The translations under genes were made by a program, and so were the position numbers. Shown here piece after piece: positions 55,647 to 63,603 of a stretch of DNA of 64,000 nt. Location of the stretch: positions 1-64,000 of the forward strand of contig JANWYG010000004.1 of the NCBI GenBank assembly GCA_025057015.1, read 5' to 3'. The stretch's first letter is position 1. Each line of letters opens with the position of its first letter. The DNA comes from Blastocatellia bacterium (GTDB lineage: Bacteria > Acidobacteriota > Blastocatellia > Chloracidobacteriales > JADJPF01). The notes below the pieces were generated by a model, which searched no databases, was not told where the DNA came from, and saw only the letters and a list, made by a program, of their open reading frames with translations.

Positions 55647-57257
55647 ATGGAAAAGGAAAAAATGAGTAAGCAAAGAAAACAGAAATTCGAGACTTCCTCT
55701 GGCATAGAGTTAAAAGCTGCTTTTCAGCTACAAGATGTTGCCGCAAGCGGTGAGATTGATACTTCTATGCCGGGAACCTTTCCCTTCACCCGTGGTATAC
55801 ATCCCAGCATGTATCGCACCCGCTTTTGGACTATGCGCCAGTATGCTGGCTTTGCTACCGCTGAGGAATCTAACAAACGGTATAAGTATTTGCTTGCAAA
55901 TGGTACTACGGGACTTTCGATAGCTTTCGACTTACCTACCCAAATAGGCCTGGACTCTGACAATCCACTTGCAGCAGGGGAAGTAGGTAAAGTCGGTGTA
56001 GCAATAGATTCACTAAGGGACATGGAGATACTGCTTGATGGTATACCGCTCGACAAAGTCTCTACTTCCATGACGATCAATTCTACAGCAGCTATATTGC
56101 TTGCTCTCTATATAGCGGTAGCACGCAAACAAGGCGTACCCACTCATAAGCTGAATGGTACGATACAAAACGACTTGCTTAAAGAATACATAGCACGAGG
56201 AACTTATATCTATCCACCTCGTCCGTCGCTTAGAATTATCACAGATATCTTTGCCTACTGTTCTAAGCATCTGCCTAATTGGAACACCATATCGATTTCG
56301 GGATATCACATAAGAGAAGCAGGCTCGACTGCCGTGCAAGAAGTTGCATTTACCCTGGCAAATGCTATCTGTTACACACAAGCGGCTATAGATGCAGGGC
56401 TGGAAGTGGATAGTTTTGCCCCGCGCCTCAGCTTCTTCTTCAATGCTCATAATAACCTTCTCGAAGAAGTGGCTAAGTTTCGTGCTGCACGTAGACTATG
56501 GGCGAAGATAATGAGAGAACGCTTTGGAGCAAAGGATGAACGCTCTTGTATGTTGCGCTTCCACGCGCAGACAGCAGGCAGTACGCTGACTGCACAGCAG
56601 CCCGATGTGAATGTAGTGCGCGTGACAATACAAGCACTTGCTGCAGTCCTCGGAGGAGCCCAGTCCTTACATACTAACTCTCGTGATGAAGCTCTTAGCT
56701 TGCCTACGGAAGAAGCCGCTCGCTTAGCCCTGAGAACTCAGCAGGTCATAGCCTATGAATCCGGCGTTGCAGACATAGCCGATCCTCTAGGTGGTAGCTA
56801 CGTGGTAGAGTATCTGACAAACGAGATTGAAGCTAGAGCTTTGGATTATATACGCAAGATAGATGAAATGGGAGGCGTGTTAACAGCGATAGAGACAGGA
56901 TGGATACAACGCGAGATTCAAGAAGCGGCCTACCGCTATCAGAAAGCCTTGGAAAGAGGTGAAGAAGTAGTTGTCGGACTAAACAAGTTCCAGATAGAGG
57001 AATCCGAGCACATACCAATTTTCAAGGTAGATGATTCTATAGAGCGGGCTCAGGTAGAAGCGCTTCGAAGACTGCGTAAAGAACGTGATAACGCAAAAGT
57101 AGCTGCCGCGTTAGACGCTGTAGAGGCTGCTGCGCGTACTACTGAAAATCTCATGCCACATATACTTAATGCCGTCGAGTGTTACGCTACCGTGGGTGAA
57201 ATTTCTGATCGACTGCGCAAAGTCTTCGGTGAGTATAGAGAAGCGCTGGTACTCTAG
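55647..57257 (+). CDS. Methylmalonyl-CoA mutase, large-subunit catalytic domain
   Basis: A 536-residue B12-dependent mutase catalytic (TIM-barrel) domain interconverting methylmalonyl-CoA and succinyl-CoA. Family signatures are '[22 protein letters not shown]' (shown in part, the substrate entrance), '[20 protein letters not shown]', '[11 protein letters not shown]', '[21 protein letters not shown]' and '[19 protein letters not shown]' (each shown in part). The separate ~130-residue B12-binding domain is not fused and not in the window, so the enzyme is of the split type. ATG 55647 with AGAGGG 7 nt upstream is the start; the longer open frame from 55446 is repeat sequence. Its TAG overlaps the stop of the convergent E1-like gene in a shared CTAG. 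Ethylmalonyl- or isobutyryl-CoA mutase cannot be fully excluded. Confidence 0.88.
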
Positions 57258-58702
57258 TTTTGGTCAAAGGGAATTTGAAGGCTTGAGAGATCGAAGGCTT
57301 CTTTAAGCTTTAGGGCTACTTCTAGTTTTCTTTTGCACTCTGCACACTCTACGTAATCTCCGCGCCCGGCAATCTCGTCGGGGCCGTATACTCTGGCTGC
57401 ACCAACTTTGTCTATGCCATATGGATATAGGCCGTCAGCATTAATTTCAGCATAGTTTGCTCCAAGCAGCAGGGTACGCTCTTCTGCTATTATTCTGCAA
57501 AGCCAGACTTCGGGGTTAAGGTAGCTTGTTGTAATCAAAGCTGCTGCTATTGCCGCTCTTGCAGTCTCTACTATTGTTGCTGGTTCGGCTTGTAATTCGT
57601 GTGGTGCTGCATACATCCTTCTTTGCTCGGGCGTAAGTTCCGGAGTCGGACCACGGTGTATGTGCCCTCTGATACAACTAAAGCAGGGGCCTTCTTCCGT
57701 GACGATTATCGCTTCGAAGTATCTTGCCCTAGCATAGCAGCTAATTGCTAAATGGGGTACTTTGATTGACCTTAACTGTGCTGACACTGCTCGGTCGTGA
57801 TTAGTACCCGTAGAAAGCACGGCAAAGTCCAAGTGTCCGAGTCTGTCCAGCTCATCTAAATTAGTTTCATCCAGGTTTTTCATGAAAGTTAAACACTTTG
57901 ATGCGCCCAGTAGCTCTGCGCAAGCCTCTACTTTTGGTTTACCTACTTGTTTCACACTATATAACTGCCGAATAGGATTAGTTATATCGACACTTTCTCC
58001 GTCAAAAAGCACCAAGTCGGCACCAAGAGTTGCTAACTTTTCGGCTACGATACTGCCGAGGCTGCCGAGGCCTACGATAAGGATTCTCTTACCATTGAGA
58101 GTACTACTCTTTAACTGTCCTTTTGCTACTAAGCTGAGATTTTGCGAGCTTACTTCTTCTACTGCCCAAGGCCAGGAAGGATGCCCAATAAGCAAAGGAC
58201 GACCGTTGTAGAAGCTGTTGATGTCGCTACGTGCTAGCGGAGTTGAGTTTAGCAATCGGCCTTTGACCAGTGCAGCAGCTACCGTGAGAAGGTTATCAAG
58301 AAGTAATGTACCTCGTATGTTGACATCCACAATTAGATCAGCTGTAGTAGTAGGTAGCGTAACTATTAAGCCTGCGCCGTTCTCAAGCTGAGAAAAAAAT
58401 AGTCCTTCACAAGTATTTGTAAGGCAGAACTTGTTTGCTGTCTGTAGTACATCCCTTCTGCCAGCGGCTACTAAGAAGTCGATATTGCCGGAGCTAATTT
58501 CTATTCTGAGTCCTAGTTTTTCAGAGAGTCTGTTTGCAGCTCTTTCTACGGCAAGGCGATTGTCTTCCGTAACAGCATATTTGGTAATACCACAGCCACA
58601 GAGGTAATCCATCAACAAGTAGGCATCGCCTAGTATAGCTATGTTTTTGTTAAACAAATGGTTGCCGACTATGGGTAAGATCCTTGCGAAGACATCGTTC
58701 AT
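57254..58702 (-). CDS. E1-like ubiquitin-activating protein with tandem Rossmann halves
   Basis: A 482-residue ThiF/E1-superfamily protein. Residues ~200-345 are a canonical adenylation domain: '[14 protein letters not shown]' (ATP glycine loop 211-216), Asp234 in 'LVLFDGE', Asn242 and Arg245 in 'NPIRQLY', Lys255 in 'GKPKVEA', and a candidate thioester Cys322 in '[12 protein letters not shown]'. Two CxxC pairs (340/343 and 453/456) form the zinc site. Residues ~18-180 look like a worn second copy: '[19 protein letters not shown]', 'TEDN', '[13 protein letters not shown]' and 'LLIG' follow the order of '[12 protein letters not shown]', 'FDGE', '[13 protein letters not shown]' and 'LLLG', but without the glycine loop. 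That is the plan of eukaryotic Uba1 in one chain. AGAGGA lies 9 nt before ATG 58702, inside the preceding peptidase gene (53-nt overlap). It is the last gene of the operon. Confidence 0.85.
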
Positions 58703-59558
58703 TTGCGGTTTCCTCTATTTTAGTGAGCTTGTATTTGCTAAAGCTTGTACCAAGATTGATAACGAAATTGGATGAAATAACTGCGTTATGCAAAACCCGC
58801 GCTACGATAGGTTGAATTGGAAAGCTGGGCGGTAGTAGCAGTAATATTGCGTCACAGGTCTTTGAGTAGAAGGCAAGTGATGTCCAAGCACCAGGCCATC
58901 GCTCCAGCTCTATCAATCTGTCGCCAAGTTCGCTTCTGAGTGATTGCTCCCAATCTTGCCCTCGGACTGTTTTGTAATATGGCTGCTTGAGGTAATGGCA
59001 TTTATGCGAGTCAGAGATTTCTGCTTTGCCTAAATCCCATACTTGATTTTCATCGGCTGCAAAACAACAAGGATTCCAACCCTCGTCGTTACGCGCAAGA
59101 ATTATGGCAAGACTTAGGTGTATATCTAGCAAAGCAGAGTTTTTGTTCAGGTAGGGCAAGATGTGGCAGCGTAGGTCTGTACTGGAAGGATATGTGTAAC
59201 CGATTGCAAACGGGTGCGAGTGGCCTGGGCCGAGAAAAAGTAGTTGAGGGTATCTCTTGTTTATTTTCGATACCCCTTCGTGGAAGATTGAGTTTATTGA
59301 CGCGTCATGACGAAAGCTCGCAGAATACTGGCTATATGACGCAAATTGGCGCGGTGGCAGAAACACTTCACATATTACTATCTGAGATAGGTCTTCTAAG
59401 CGGCAGCTGTCACATAGCGTACGACCTATCTTAGGCTGTAGAGCTACCATTGGGTAGAACGTAGACTCAAGTGCTGTATCACTACGATTAGCCCAAAAGT
59501 CTGTCTCTTGACAGATCTTTTTCCAAGCTCTTGCGAGTATCGTTACTTTGGGTAGCAT
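58650..59558 (-). CDS. JAMM/JAB-family metallopeptidase (deubiquitinase-like)
   Basis: A 302-residue protein with the zinc-peptidase signature of the JAMM/Mov34/MPN fold: Glu64 ('VICEVFLPP'), His113 and His115 in 'LGPGHSHPF', Ser125 and Asp128 in 'YPSSTD'. The spacing from the second His to the Asp is 13 residues, two more than in AMSH-like enzymes, a small insertion. Such peptidases in E1/E2 operons trim the ubiquitin-like modifier to Gly-Gly or remove it from targets. The C-terminal ~110 residues are of unknown fold. ATG 59558 is 4 nt after the E2-like stop; an in-frame ATG at 59600 would overlap that gene. The gene overlaps E1 at its end. Confidence 0.82.
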   Translation of the reverse strand: MLPKVTILARAWKKICQETDFWANRSDTALESTFYPMVALQPKIGRTLCDSCRLEDLSQIVICEVFLPPRQFASYSQYSASFRHDASINSIFHEGVSKINKRYPQLLFLGPGHSHPFAIGYTYPSSTDLRCHILPYLNKNSALLDIHLSLAIILARNDEGWNPCCFAADENQVWDLGKAEISDSHKCHYLKQPYYKTVRGQDWEQSLRSELGDRLIELERWPGAWTSLAFYSKTCDAILLLLPPSFPIQPIVARVLHNAVISSNFVINLGTSFSKYKLTKIEETANERCLRKDLTHSRQPFV

Positions 59559-59562
59559 AGTC

Positions 59563-60486
59563 TTACCGGAAGTATTTAGGAACTTGTTTGTCTTCTGCAT
59601 ATTTCACCAAAGCAAAAGTATGAGGGGCTATTCGGTTTGCAACTACTTGTAGAATAGTTATGCTCTCGTTCCACTCTTTGGAAGCGTATAAGCAAATCTG
59701 TGTTTCTCCGATCAAATGAGCAGTATGGCCAGCAGCTTCGAGCAGATCAACGAATTCAAAACTACCATAGTAGGCTGTGGGCTGATTATGTGGCCAGTCA
59801 CGTGGATAATACACTTCTATGGGGATAAGTATGTGTTTTGCTCCCAGGATGTCTATTATTGGATAGGATAGCTTACGATCCTCGATTGCCTTTTGCAGCA
59901 CTTCTAGCACTTTAGGTCTGTCAGAGAGGTTTACTGGTAGTAGGCCTGACCAACCTAGGTAAGTTGGCCTTTTTACTTTGTATGGCTTGTCGCAGAAGAT
60001 ACATCTGACTGCACCGCGGGTGGGTACTAGATTGTCCTTGCAGCAAGGTGAAAGAATAGACGATTTTTCATACTTCTCATAAGGGTCATCTTCTCCGAAG
60101 GTGAGTATCCAATTTGGTAGATGTTGCTGCATTTCTTCAAGGTCGCGCTTTAGTAGATTTTCATTTCTGAGCCATTTGTAGTGACTGAAAAGTTCTTTAA
60201 TGAGTTCTATGTCAACCTGCCAAGTTTTGATGCTGCGATCGGGCATAATTCTTCTTTGTGTGAAGCTCTCTGGTCTGCCAAATCTGTCTTCTGCGGGGTT
60301 AATCGTCATTGGCAGCTCATCACCTCTGGCTTTGTTTCTACTTGGGAAGAAGTCAACAGGTGTAGAGCTAACTTCAGCTTCTTCAGCTGCTTTGGAACTT
60401 GTATAAATCCTTTCGCATAGAGGGCAGAAGGCTATCGGGCCTGTCTGTATTAACTCTTGAGGTGGGAAGCAAAATTTACATCTCAT
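59563..60486 (-). CDS. E2-like (UBC-fold) conjugation protein with zinc clusters
   Basis: A 307-residue protein. Residues 1-24 carry a zinc knuckle (C3, C6, C21, C24); C148/C149 with C162/C165 form a second. Residues ~195-295 follow the UBC pattern: 'IPIEVYYPRDWPHNQP' corresponds to the 'FPxxYPxxPP' strand-turn of E2s. 'HLIGETQICLYASKEWNESI' matches the active-site run GxICL...W, with Cys265 as candidate thioester residue and His257 at the position of the HPN Asn, a substitution seen in other bacterial E2-like proteins. 'TILQVVANRI' matches the following helix. No RING partner is needed for the call but none is seen. TAGGAGG lies 6 nt before the ATG. The assignment rests on motif order and on the E1 and JAMM neighbours. 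Confidence 0.7.
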   Translation of the reverse strand: MRCKFCFPPQELIQTGPIAFCPLCERIYTSSKAAEEAEVSSTPVDFFPSRNKARGDELPMTINPAEDRFGRPESFTQRRIMPDRSIKTWQVDIELIKELFSHYKWLRNENLLKRDLEEMQQHLPNWILTFGEDDPYEKYEKSSILSPCCKDNLVPTRGAVRCIFCDKPYKVKRPTYLGWSGLLPVNLSDRPKVLEVLQKAIEDRKLSYPIIDILGAKHILIPIEVYYPRDWPHNQPTAYYGSFEFVDLLEAAGHTAHLIGETQICLYASKEWNESITILQVVANRIAPHTFALVKYAEDKQVPKYFR

Positions 60487-60496
60487 AATAGTCCTC

Positions 60497-61135
60497 CTAT
60501 TTTTTGGTTATGAATCCGCCATAATAGAACCGTGCTGTTCCGGCATTAAGTGCCTCTTCTATGCTAGAAGCTAAGGTGAAAAACCTCTTTTGGATGCCTC
60601 CTTGAGTGAGCATGTATTCTTCTAATGAGTGAGGGCAGAACAGAATATTTTCCGAACGTGCTATTAGTGGCCTCGTGGGGTTGCAGCAGCTACAAGTGCC
60701 GTAGGGCAATTCTTGAAGTCTCTTGTACTCTCCTAAGTACTGTGCGTAGCGTTCGTTTGTTAGCGAGCAGTAAATGATGTCGTCCTTTGTTATTAGTGGC
60801 CGCTTAGGATTGCAGCATTTACAGGCACCTATCGGTAGGCTGTTAGTAGGTACCAGCAAGTTGTCTGGAACTCGAGGGACAAACATCTTGTTACAATTTC
60901 GGCAAACCAACAACCCGTTCTCTAGCTGCAGCTCATGCACGCACGAAGGGCAGCAGGGCAAACTCTTTGAGCTGACAGTTGTTGGGTTGCCATCTGTCTT
61001 CAAACTCTCTAGAGTGCTGACGACTTCCTGTTGCAACTGCCGTTGTTGTTTACGCCGGAGGAGTTCACCGATCAATGTCAAGTTTGACGCGTGCGTACCG
61101 TTTAGTGTCGCTTGAAGCTGTTGGTCTTTTTTCAT
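60497..61135 (-). CDS. Small multi-zinc-cluster protein with C-terminal Gly-Gly
   Basis: A 212-residue protein of no known family. After a charged helical N-terminus it has a Cys cluster (C61, C62, C65, C78, C81) and two repeats of the unusual motif C-x-C-C-N-P-x-R-P-L-I, at 105-115 ('CKCCNPKRPLI') and 148-158 ('CSCCNPTRPLI'), each followed about 10 residues later by an aromatic-Cys (Y122-C123, F166-C167). The chain ends 'RFYYGGFITKK', so a Gly-Gly (206-207) sits five residues before the C-terminus. Because it lies in an operon with E1, E2 and JAMM peptidase, it could be the modifier precursor, an E3-like adaptor or a substrate. No beta-grasp fold can be recognised by eye. AGGAG lies 8 nt before the ATG. 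It begins 9 nt after the preceding gene. Confidence 0.6.
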   Translation of the reverse strand: MKKDQQLQATLNGTHASNLTLIGELLRRKQQRQLQQEVVSTLESLKTDGNPTTVSSKSLPCCPSCVHELQLENGLLVCRNCNKMFVPRVPDNLLVPTNSLPIGACKCCNPKRPLITKDDIIYCSLTNERYAQYLGEYKRLQELPYGTCSCCNPTRPLIARSENILFCPHSLEEYMLTQGGIQKRFFTLASSIEEALNAGTARFYYGGFITKK

Positions 61136-61144
61136 ATTCTTCTC

Positions 61145-61996
61145 CTAAATCGCCACACGCAAAGCTGCCTCAAAGGCTTCTTTCTGAGCGGCAGGAATGA
61201 AAGATCTGGCTTTTTCCAAGTGCTTTCTGTTAAGTAGGAAATACTTGGAGCTTTCAAGGTAGGCTACTGACTCTGGTCTTGGTTCTATACCGAGTGATTC
61301 AGCGAGCTTTGAGAGGCATTCGTTGCCTTTGATGATTTGGGCATGTCCATAAGCTGCCATTTGCCTAATAGCTTCGTGGTGCTTAGCAGGCTGCTGTGAC
61401 ATACAGGCTGGTTCTATGACTTTGACGCGAAAGCCTAGAGCAGTAAACACCTGCGCGTTAAGTTGTATCATGTAGTCTGTCCAGACGCCGGCAAGATAGA
61501 TTTCTACCTCTTCAGCTGGAGCATTGCCTGTGTGGTCGTTGATCCAGTCCAGTATAGGCGAAGGTTGTTTGCCTTCGGGTAGCACCATAATCGCTTGATG
61601 AGCTCGATACTCACGTGAGTTACCGCATCCGACATATGGCTGCAGATCCTCTATCCAATCCCAACCGGGATGACCTTCTATAGCGTGCGGATTGAAGGTC
61701 TTAAGGTGCGGATAATGATCTATATTTTCTGCCGTGTGGCTATCAGCTCGCCATATTGTGAGGACGTTTGATGATCCCTCGCCCATAGTGACCAAGTCTG
61801 CCAACCATTGCCAGACACCACCGTTGGTTGCCACTATACGGGGATCAATTCTTATGAGGCAGTCTGCCTCTTTAGGCCCGTCAGGTGGTCCTACGAGATC
61901 GTTGATTAGGTCACAAATAATTACTATCTTCTTGTCGCTTATGCGACTGGAAGGTTGGTACGTATAAAACTTTTCGGGCATTATTGGCCTTGCCAT
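61145..61996 (-). CDS. Isochorismatase/nicotinamidase-fold protein lacking the catalytic Cys
   Basis: A 283-residue protein of the cysteine-hydrolase (isochorismatase-like) fold. The N-terminal strand with the catalytic Asp is present ('IVIICDLINDLVGPP', Asp29), as are a nicotinamidase-like metal-ligand region ('WRADSHTAENIDHYPHL') and 'NPHAIEGHPGWDWI'. At the active-site turn, active members read G-x-x-T-D-x-C; this protein reads 'AGVWTDYMIQLN', with Met176 in place of Cys. I cannot place the catalytic Lys either. It is therefore probably a pseudo-enzyme used for binding. AAGGAG lies 8 nt before the ATG. It is the second gene of the operon, after the Hsp70-like gene. Confidence 0.75.
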   Translation of the reverse strand: MARPIMPEKFYTYQPSSRISDKKIVIICDLINDLVGPPDGPKEADCLIRIDPRIVATNGGVWQWLADLVTMGEGSSNVLTIWRADSHTAENIDHYPHLKTFNPHAIEGHPGWDWIEDLQPYVGCGNSREYRAHQAIMVLPEGKQPSPILDWINDHTGNAPAEEVEIYLAGVWTDYMIQLNAQVFTALGFRVKVIEPACMSQQPAKHHEAIRQMAAYGHAQIIKGNECLSKLAESLGIEPRPESVAYLESSKYFLLNRKHLEKARSFIPAAQKEAFEAALRVAI

Positions 61997-62011: not shown

Positions 62012-63505
62012 CTATAGGTCGTAGGTTATGGTTATTTCTTGCTGATTTCCTGAAGAAGGATCTGTTGCACGCACGACTACTATGCCGTCTTCATCTTTGC
62101 CTATGGTCACCTTGATCGGCGATCTTGCCGGTAGATTAGGTGGTAGAGGTAGACGAAATTCTCCAAGCAGTCGATTGTCACTAGCTTTTATATTTTCACC
62201 TTCACGAACTTCTATGACGACGTAAGCAAGGTTTGATGAAGTAGTTTCGAAAGTTTTTGTAGTAGTAGCTGGCACTATTGTCTGTCTTTTTAGCACAAAC
62301 CCCATACTTCCGTCGTAGAGAGTTATGCCGAGCGAGTGAGCAGTAACATCTTCGACCTTTATGTTTGAAGCAACTGATGCACCGTTGAGCTTGCCGGCAT
62401 ATATAGCAGCACCTCGGACAGCGAGCTCTTCGGGACGATCTATGTTGATTGGGTTTTTGCCGGTGACCTTATATAGCAAGTCTTTGAAGACTTGCATTCT
62501 ACAACAGCCGCCTAGGAGGATAACTTCGTCTACTGATCCACCTTCGGAGAGGCACCGCTCGACTAGTTTTTGAGCACGTGCAACCAGCGGTGAGATGAGC
62601 TTTTGTAAGATCCGTTGTGAGAGTATTGCTACAAGGTGAAGTGGTTTACCGTCTTCGGCAAAGGAGACAAAAGGCACGGTTAGCTCTACTTTTTGTTCTT
62701 GTTCTAAGCGGTGCTTGGCTTCCTTTACAGCCATCATCACTTCATGCCGAGCCATTTGTGAGCTATTTGCAAGAGCTACCCCGTTGTGGCGGCGGGCAAA
62801 GTTTTTTGATAGGTACTGGTATATCAGCAGATCGATGTCATTACCGCCAAGATCGGTATCTCCGACTATAGCTTTAACGTACAACTGGCCCTGGCGGGAT
62901 AGTTCCAGAACGGCAGCTTCACATTTACCTGCACCCATGTCAAACGTTAGTATTCTTTTTGGGGGACGTTCGAAAGTTACCATAAGCGGAAGAGCTGCTG
63001 CTGCTGGCTCGTTTATCAATTTGCTCTTTTTGAAGACAGCGGCTGCGGCTAGTCGCACGCTTCTTCTTTGAAAGTCGTTTGTACTGCCTGCCACTGTTAA
63101 AACTGCGTGTTCGACTTCATGGCCGAGATATCTTTCTGCAAAATACTTGAGCCGTTGCAGCACCATTGCATAAAGCTCTACCGGCGAATATGTCTGGTTG
63201 CCAGCTCCTACTAGCCTTATTCGTCCGTTGTCGTCTACTATCTCTACAGGTAGTGGCAGGTCTTTGACCTCGACATACCGCTTGCCGAGCAGTCTTCCTA
63301 TGCTGCTAACATACAGGTTCGAATCTGTGCCGGAATAGAGATAGGCATACTTGCCAACCTCGCGCATCCGGTGCAGCAGCACAGCGCTTGGCATCGATAA
63401 GTCACCTTCTTCTAGTGGTACTAGCCTCGTTTGACCATTTTCGTACACTGCCACTCGTGCGTACTCGTTTCCGACTGCTATTCCTATCCATTCTCCTTGC
63501 TTCAT
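62012..63505 (-). CDS. Hsp70-like protein with degenerate ATPase site and no lid
   Basis: A 497-residue Hsp70-family protein (DnaK is ~640). The nucleotide-binding domain (~5-370) retains 'LINEPAAAALPL', 'LGGNDIDLLIYQYL' and 'EVILLGGCCRMQVFKDLL'. Most catalytic positions of DnaK are changed: the phosphate-1 loop 'IGIDLGTTNS' is 'IGIAVGNEYA', the Lys70 position is Gly in 'SSIGRLLGK', and phosphate-2 'DLGGGT' is 'DMGAGK'. Only the Asp and Glu166 equivalents remain. A short substrate-binding beta domain (~385-497) follows and the helical lid is absent. ATG 63505 has GGAG 6 nt upstream. An earlier in-frame ATG at 63577 lies within and upstream of the promoter, so it is excluded; ATG 63517 is possible. 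It is the first gene of the ubiquitin-like operon. Confidence 0.8.
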   Translation of the reverse strand: MKQGEWIGIAVGNEYARVAVYENGQTRLVPLEEGDLSMPSAVLLHRMREVGKYAYLYSGTDSNLYVSSIGRLLGKRYVEVKDLPLPVEIVDDNGRIRLVGAGNQTYSPVELYAMVLQRLKYFAERYLGHEVEHAVLTVAGSTNDFQRRSVRLAAAAVFKKSKLINEPAAAALPLMVTFERPPKRILTFDMGAGKCEAAVLELSRQGQLYVKAIVGDTDLGGNDIDLLIYQYLSKNFARRHNGVALANSSQMARHEVMMAVKEAKHRLEQEQKVELTVPFVSFAEDGKPLHLVAILSQRILQKLISPLVARAQKLVERCLSEGGSVDEVILLGGCCRMQVFKDLLYKVTGKNPINIDRPEELAVRGAAIYAGKLNGASVASNIKVEDVTAHSLGITLYDGSMGFVLKRQTIVPATTTKTFETTSSNLAYVVIEVREGENIKASDNRLLGEFRLPLPPNLPARSPIKVTIGKDEDGIVVVRATDPSSGNQQEITITYDL

Positions 63506-63545
63506 CTCAAGCTCCATAGTGTGATATATACACTTTCTAATGATA

Positions 63546-63574
63546 AGGATATACATGAAATAGTGTCTTGTCAA
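63546..63574 (-). promoter_or_regulatory. Sigma-70-type promoter of the ubiquitin-like operon
   Basis: On the minus strand TTGACA (63574-63569) and TATCCT (63551-63546) are separated by exactly 17 nt. Transcription would start near 63539, about 34 nt before ATG 63505. No further promoter of this quality is visible downstream, so the six genes likely share it. Confidence 0.75.
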
Positions 63575-63603
63575 CACTTTTTTTTAAAAAAAAGAGAGGG
63601 GGG

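Follow-up and report, generated by a model that had tools for sequence, protein, structure and literature searches.

Genes and features of the operon

The window, which is the whole stretch of 64,000 nucleotides of a Blastocatellia bacterium analyzed here, contains a minus-strand operon of six genes encoding an Hsp70-like protein, an isochorismatase-like protein, a cysteine motif protein referred to as the zinc protein (the third of the six), an E2-like protein, a JAMM protein and an E1-like protein. Neighboring genes lie within about 15 bases of each other or overlap. The features are as follows:

62012..63577, minus strand: Hsp70-like protein (Pfam HSP70, 4.4e-86), found at the same place in the genomes G002 and G003
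61145..61996, minus strand: isochorismatase-like protein (Pfam, 9.4e-8), directly upstream of the zinc protein gene
60497..61135, minus strand: zinc protein, 212 amino acids (codons), ATG start, with orthologues in G002 and G003
60893..60952, minus strand: zinc unit 1, C62-x2-C65 ... C78-x2-C81, cysteines invariant in all three orthologues
60767..60823, minus strand: zinc unit 2, C105-x-C107-C108 ... C123, from the alignment and a CxCC profile
60635..60694, minus strand: zinc unit 3, C148-x-C150-C151 ... C167, from the alignment and a CxCC profile
60515..60526, minus strand: YYGG (amino acids 204-207), followed by F-I-T-K-K; FYYGGF is invariant and the segment is predicted to be disordered (pLDDT about 27-30)
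59563..60486, minus strand: E2-like protein with an N-terminal zinc motif (C3, C6, C21, C24) and the candidate catalytic C265
58650..59558, minus strand: JAMM/MPN+ metallopeptidase-like protein (E45, GHSHPF...PSSTD); the start at 59558 is inferred from the orthologues, and the reading frame is open from 59600
57254..58702, minus strand: E1-like (ThiF) protein with an extra N-terminal region (Pfam ThiF, 8.4e-15)

The sequence-only reading had proposed a gene at 60497-61135, and this was confirmed, since the minus strand carries an uninterrupted frame of 212 codons starting with ATG and the plus strand of the same segment contains many stop codons. The operon was found in three genomes only, i.e., the window genome, G002 and G003, which all belong to one family of the Blastocatellia. 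The order in G002 is Hsp70, isochorismatase-like protein, zinc protein, E2 zinc domain, E2, JAMM and E1; a 59-bp tandem repeat of 8.7 copies lies inside its E2 gene (L004:10530-11032), and the array divides the E2 zinc domain from the rest of E2, resulting in two ORFs. G003 shows the same order divided over two contigs, which end within or beside the E2 gene. The operon was not found in G001, a member of the same family with a completeness of 83%, and no further operon genome was found among 396 sampled genomes of the phylum. Profile searches with E2 and JAMM agree with this distribution, save for a marginal, stop-interrupted E2 match in the genome G234 (E=0.0095). The public contigs that match the orthologues are metagenome-assembled genomes (MAGs) labelled Blastocatellia bacterium or Acidobacteria bacterium; a contig scan with the zinc protein returned nothing and one with the isochorismatase-like protein only the two known MAGs, and no wider relatives were found in plasmids or viral contigs.

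E1-like, E2-like and JAMM proteins are encoded together in this operon, the JAMM protein being assigned by its fold and the E2 by a weak profile match and a Cys motif. The predicted JAMM fold, from a model of modest confidence, matches the MPN domains of Rpn8/Rpn11 (E=5.4e-7, probability 1.00), the residues E45, HSH and SSTD are conserved in the orthologue alignment, and the G002 orthologue matches the PADLOC JAB profile (E=0.006); a Pfam search of the window JAMM protein gave no match. The protein at 59563..60486 matches an E2 profile of PADLOC weakly (E=0.0054, amino acids 221-283) around the candidate catalytic Cys, and C265-L-Y and W272 are conserved in G002. It is termed E2-like and regarded as a putative E2. 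The E1-like protein has Cap2, Nedd8-E1 and MoeB as matches in the PDB. Aligned to the MoeB of the same genome it has no Cys at the position of the MoeB crossover loop, and two other cysteines, C261 and C322, are conserved. This lack of the MoeB/ThiF crossover-loop Cys is accompanied by retention of the four MoeB-type zinc cysteines. No beta-grasp protein was detected within the six-gene operon by Pfam, PADLOC and NCBIfam.

The isochorismatase-like protein is 77% identical between genera, compared with 34-47% for the other operon proteins compared. In all three genomes it carries a Met (GVWTDYMIQ) at the apparent position of the nucleophilic Cys of the family, and it is probably a conserved pseudoenzyme.

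Zinc sites of the third protein and their relation to the E2-like protein

Two exact copies of the motif C-x-C-C-N-P-x-R-P-L-I, noticed already in the sequence-only reading, are indeed present in the zinc protein, namely CKCCNPKRPLI (amino acids 105-115) and CSCCNPTRPLI (amino acids 148-158). In the alignment of the three orthologues the motif loosens to C-x-C-C-x(4)-P-L-[IV]. Altogether twelve cysteines are invariant, and they form three groups of four, C62/65/78/81, C105/107/108/123 and C148/150/151/167. The alignment contains no invariant His. All statements on conservation of the zinc protein are based on three sequences, two of which (G002 and G003) are congeneric. The structure predicted for the zinc protein consists of three repeated small beta units and is of low confidence (mean pLDDT 54.7), with zinc unit 1 as the best-predicted part (pLDDT 73-85). 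A Foldseek search of the PDB with this model gave no significant match; the small zinc fold of YcaR/Trm112-like proteins (2jny, probability 0.38, E=1.6) is too weak a match to be more than a lead. No homology was found via Pfam, PADLOC and NCBIfam. There is also no Pfam match to a beta-grasp domain and no beta-grasp fold among the listed matches of the low-confidence model, so that a hidden beta-grasp in the zinc protein is supported neither by the model nor by the searches.

The sequence-only reading had considered treble-clef-like zinc sites that would make the protein RING-like. The three separate four-Cys groups, the lack of an invariant His and the lack of a significant fold match speak against this idea, and a RING or binuclear treble-clef E3 is not supported by the ligand pattern, as eight ligands including a conserved His would be expected in a cross-brace. 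From the Cys spacing and the model, the zinc sites look like three tandem ribbon-like units rather than a RING cross-brace. Besides the zinc units, possible short linear motifs are found as one or two N-terminal helices of the type K-I-x-x-M-L-R-x-K-Q and as the C-terminal ALNxGxAxFYYGGF.

Apart from self-matches, a profile built from the CxCC units fits best to the N-terminal E2 domain of G002 (E=0.0023); the corresponding domain of G003 follows with E=0.055, and the window E2 is indistinguishable from background. A Cys motif common to the zinc protein and the E2-like N-terminus is hence suggestive only. This motif bears on one alternative, namely that the zinc protein serves a complex of Hsp70 and the pseudo-isochorismatase as a client or regulator, that this complex is regulated by E1, E2 and JAMM, and that the zinc protein exerts no ligase-like role. 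The conservation of the isochorismatase-like protein, the highest among the operon proteins compared, the Met at its nucleophile position in all three genomes and the location of its gene directly upstream of the zinc protein gene agree with such a complex; however, a type of Cys motif common to the E2-like protein and the zinc protein suggests, if weakly, a tie to the E2, and we regard this alternative as rather unlikely, though as the next in probability after an adaptor role.

The Gly-Gly motif and a separate ubiquitin-like system

The zinc protein ends with YYGG and five further residues (FYYGG-FITKK), and no other protein of the six-gene operon has a near-terminal GG, as the sequence-only reading had stated. 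A near-terminal GG alone is weak evidence: of shuffled versions of the zinc protein, 3% have a GG among the last 12 residues, and a GG is found in the last 15 residues of five of the 46 non-overlapping ORFs of the window, one of them encoding an unrelated protein that ends with VGGTK. Conservation of the GG in the orthologues had been proposed as a check, and its outcome is divided. FYYGGF[IV] is kept in all three orthologues, so a GG near the C-terminus is conserved, and the Phe following it is invariant. The tail after the GG, however, comprises 5 residues in the window protein and 24 residues in G002 and G003, and the long tail is constrained. Between G002 and G003 it is 79% identical, with 7 synonymous and 5 nonsynonymous codon differences. 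The identity of the zinc units is similar (76%), and that of the N-terminal linker is only 46%. A discarded propeptide is expected to drift, and propeptides are rarely as constrained as this tail. Conservation in the three sequences thus does not stop at the GG, and a second GG is found two residues after the first in G002 and G003. Because an invariant Phe follows the GG and the long tail is constrained, the motif does not look like a cut site. The last 20 residues of the model have a pLDDT of about 30; the tail is probably flexible according to this prediction, which is compatible with a flexible motif.

A search of the window genome with a ubiquitin profile revealed a protein of 90 amino acids (C7:33132-33401; Pfam Rad60-SLD, 5.7e-7), the C-terminal end of which is RGGGLKWVHQKK. 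Its operon, located at G000:C7:31240-33940 (L030:5241-7941), encodes an E1, the ubiquitin-like protein (Ubl), an E2 and two small proteins, each of which carries a C-x-x-C...C-x-x-C motif and is apparently anchored in the membrane by its N-terminus. Operons of this kind, with one or more such small C-x-x-C proteins, were found in 13 more genomes (L032-L044). All 14 genomes of the order that were searched, the window genome among them, carry this Ubl system, and it was found in none of the 84 other genomes searched in the class. The Ubl core comprises exactly 81 amino acids in each of the 14 genomes, ends with RGG and is followed by mutually unrelated tails of 0-21 amino acids. A JAMM protein matching the Ubl system is likewise encoded in 14 of 14, adjoining the E2 in G002 and G003 and located at C23 in the window genome. 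An RGG core with unrelated tails is, at the level of the sequences, the behavior of a true JAMM-trimmed precursor, as demonstrated by experiment for the pro-ubiquitin of Caldiarchaeum (PMC5654768). The Ubl of the same genomes, in which conservation stops at RGG, therefore serves as a control for the tail of the zinc protein, and the zinc protein fails this control because its tail is constrained.

The Ubl may also be used by the E1/E2/JAMM module of the window. All three operon genomes have the Ubl system; it occurs without the operon in 11 genomes (ten members of the order and G001), and a link between the two systems is therefore not required. When the profiles of the two E2s of the window genome were compared, and likewise those of its two JAMM proteins, no match emerged, the alignments being probably too shallow. 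A Multi_ubiq search of this genome yielded nothing above the cut-off. Three ThiS-fold proteins are encoded in it. One is a ThiS with a ThiG-like gene as its neighbor, another is a fusion of MoaD and MoaE, and the third is a JAMM-ThiS-MoeB-rhodanese fusion. The latter (G000:C8, L020:346-2202) unites JAMM-like, ThiS, MoeB and rhodanese parts in a single polypeptide, adjoins a cysteine-synthase-like gene and resembles a fused CysO/Mec-type cysteine pathway. None of the three was retained as a modifier of the operon, given the ThiG-like neighbor, the fusion to MoaE and the fusion beside the cysteine-synthase-like gene, respectively. It is very improbable that the module itself belongs to a sulfur-carrier or metal-handling pathway, in which the E1 would only adenylate similarly to MoeB and no proteins would be conjugated: the four MoeB-type zinc cysteines of the window E1, its lack of the crossover-loop Cys and the presence of the C8 fusion would fit, but such systems need no E2, and the operon does encode an E2-like protein, the candidate catalytic Cys of which is conserved.

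These data also weigh on the possibility that the zinc protein is itself the modifier, so that JAMM would trim it after YYGG, the E1 would adenylate the new C-terminal Gly and the E2 would conjugate the whole protein. In its favor, the zinc protein is the sole operon protein with a near-terminal GG, FYYGGF is the longest invariant run in its C-terminal part, the tail is predicted to be flexible, the operon contains E1, E2 and JAMM with no beta-grasp protein detected, and Cap2 of CBASS conjugates cGAS, which lacks a beta-grasp, through a C-terminal glycine (PMC10097602). Opposed to this are the invariant Phe and the constrained 24-residue tail of G002 and G003, the opposite of what the genuine Ubl displays, as well as the second GG in these genomes, the real Ubl encoded in the genome and a window E1 that has no counterpart to the crossover-loop Cys of MoeB. 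Nor does the zinc protein end with an encoded Gly or Ala as in CBASS-type modifiers; its GG could be exposed solely via trimming. We consider this possibility improbable, and a low probability is assigned equally to its consequence, a non-beta-grasp zinc-ribbon modifier that would be served by its own JAMM, E1 and E2 alongside a true Ubl system of the same cell.

A putative adaptor role and its precedents

With about even confidence, we favor an adaptor or scaffold role for the zinc protein, which with its three zinc ribbons would be a subunit of an E1/E2/JAMM module restricted to one family, and not a modifier. Its role would be at most E3-like, and not that of a RING protein. The adaptor reading is based on the tight, synteny-conserved operon with E1-like, E2-like and JAMM proteins, on the three four-Cys units and on the similar Cys motif of the E2-like protein; it is preferred over a modifier because of the invariant Phe, the constrained tail and the complete separate Ubl system in 14 of 14 genomes. 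It is weakened by the number of three orthologues of which two are congeneric, the poor model with no significant fold match, the weak PADLOC match of the E2, the negative profile comparison of the two E2s, the marginal CxCC match and the occurrence of the Ubl system in genomes without the operon. Through its zinc units and short linear motifs the protein might connect the E2-like enzyme to a client, for which Hsp70 and the seemingly inactive isochorismatase-like protein are conceivable. The modifier would be the separate order-wide Ubl encoded elsewhere in the genome, which would be matured and removed by JAMM enzymes. Of the earlier suggestion of a missing modifier or an E3-like adaptor, the adaptor half is thus plausible from the operon context and from Zn-finger precedents, and the modifier half is poorly supported. 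The latter is weakened most by the RGG-ending Ubl, for which the window genome encodes a separate set of E1, E2 and JAMM, and the premise that a modifier is missing mostly fails.

Neither an adaptor nor a non-beta-grasp modifier is without precedent (PMC1779556, PMC10097602). In 2006, Iyer and colleagues described bacterial operons (types 6c and 6e) in which E1, E2 and JAB are encoded with a Zn-finger or metal-binding protein, and the Zn-finger proteins were proposed as E3-like adaptors (PMC1779556). Like the window operon, types 6c and 6e combine E1-like, E2-like and JAB proteins with an extra predicted metal-binding protein. However, their signature C-x3-C-x(35-38)-H-x2-C forms one domain, whereas the window protein has three tandem four-Cys units and no conserved His, and Hsp70 and the isochorismatase-like protein are additional in the window. 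In type II CBASS (Cap2/Cap3), in which cGAS is conjugated, E1, E2 and JAB likewise occur with a partner lacking a beta-grasp (PMC10097602). The cGAS of CBASS is an enzyme ending at its glycine, whereas the zinc protein continues for 5-24 residues after the GG with an invariant Phe, and the E1 and E2 of the window are separate proteins, unlike those of CBASS. In the Bil system (BilABCD) and in the archaeal ubiquitin operon of Caldiarchaeum, which additionally has a small RING protein, a modifier precursor is trimmed by JAMM (PMC11354881, PMC5654768). This modifier is a beta-grasp protein, and in the window genome it is the separate operon at C7 that corresponds to these systems and not the operon of the zinc protein.

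An E3-like adaptor role, if correct, would make the zinc protein a compact bacterial test case for the choice of targets without RING ligases. The combination of ubiquitin-type enzymes with Hsp70 and a seemingly inactive hydrolase in one operon hints at a role in protein quality control. The order-wide Ubl operon merits a study of its own, and as the same genomes carry this Ubl with its variable precursor tails, side-by-side testing of both systems is possible.
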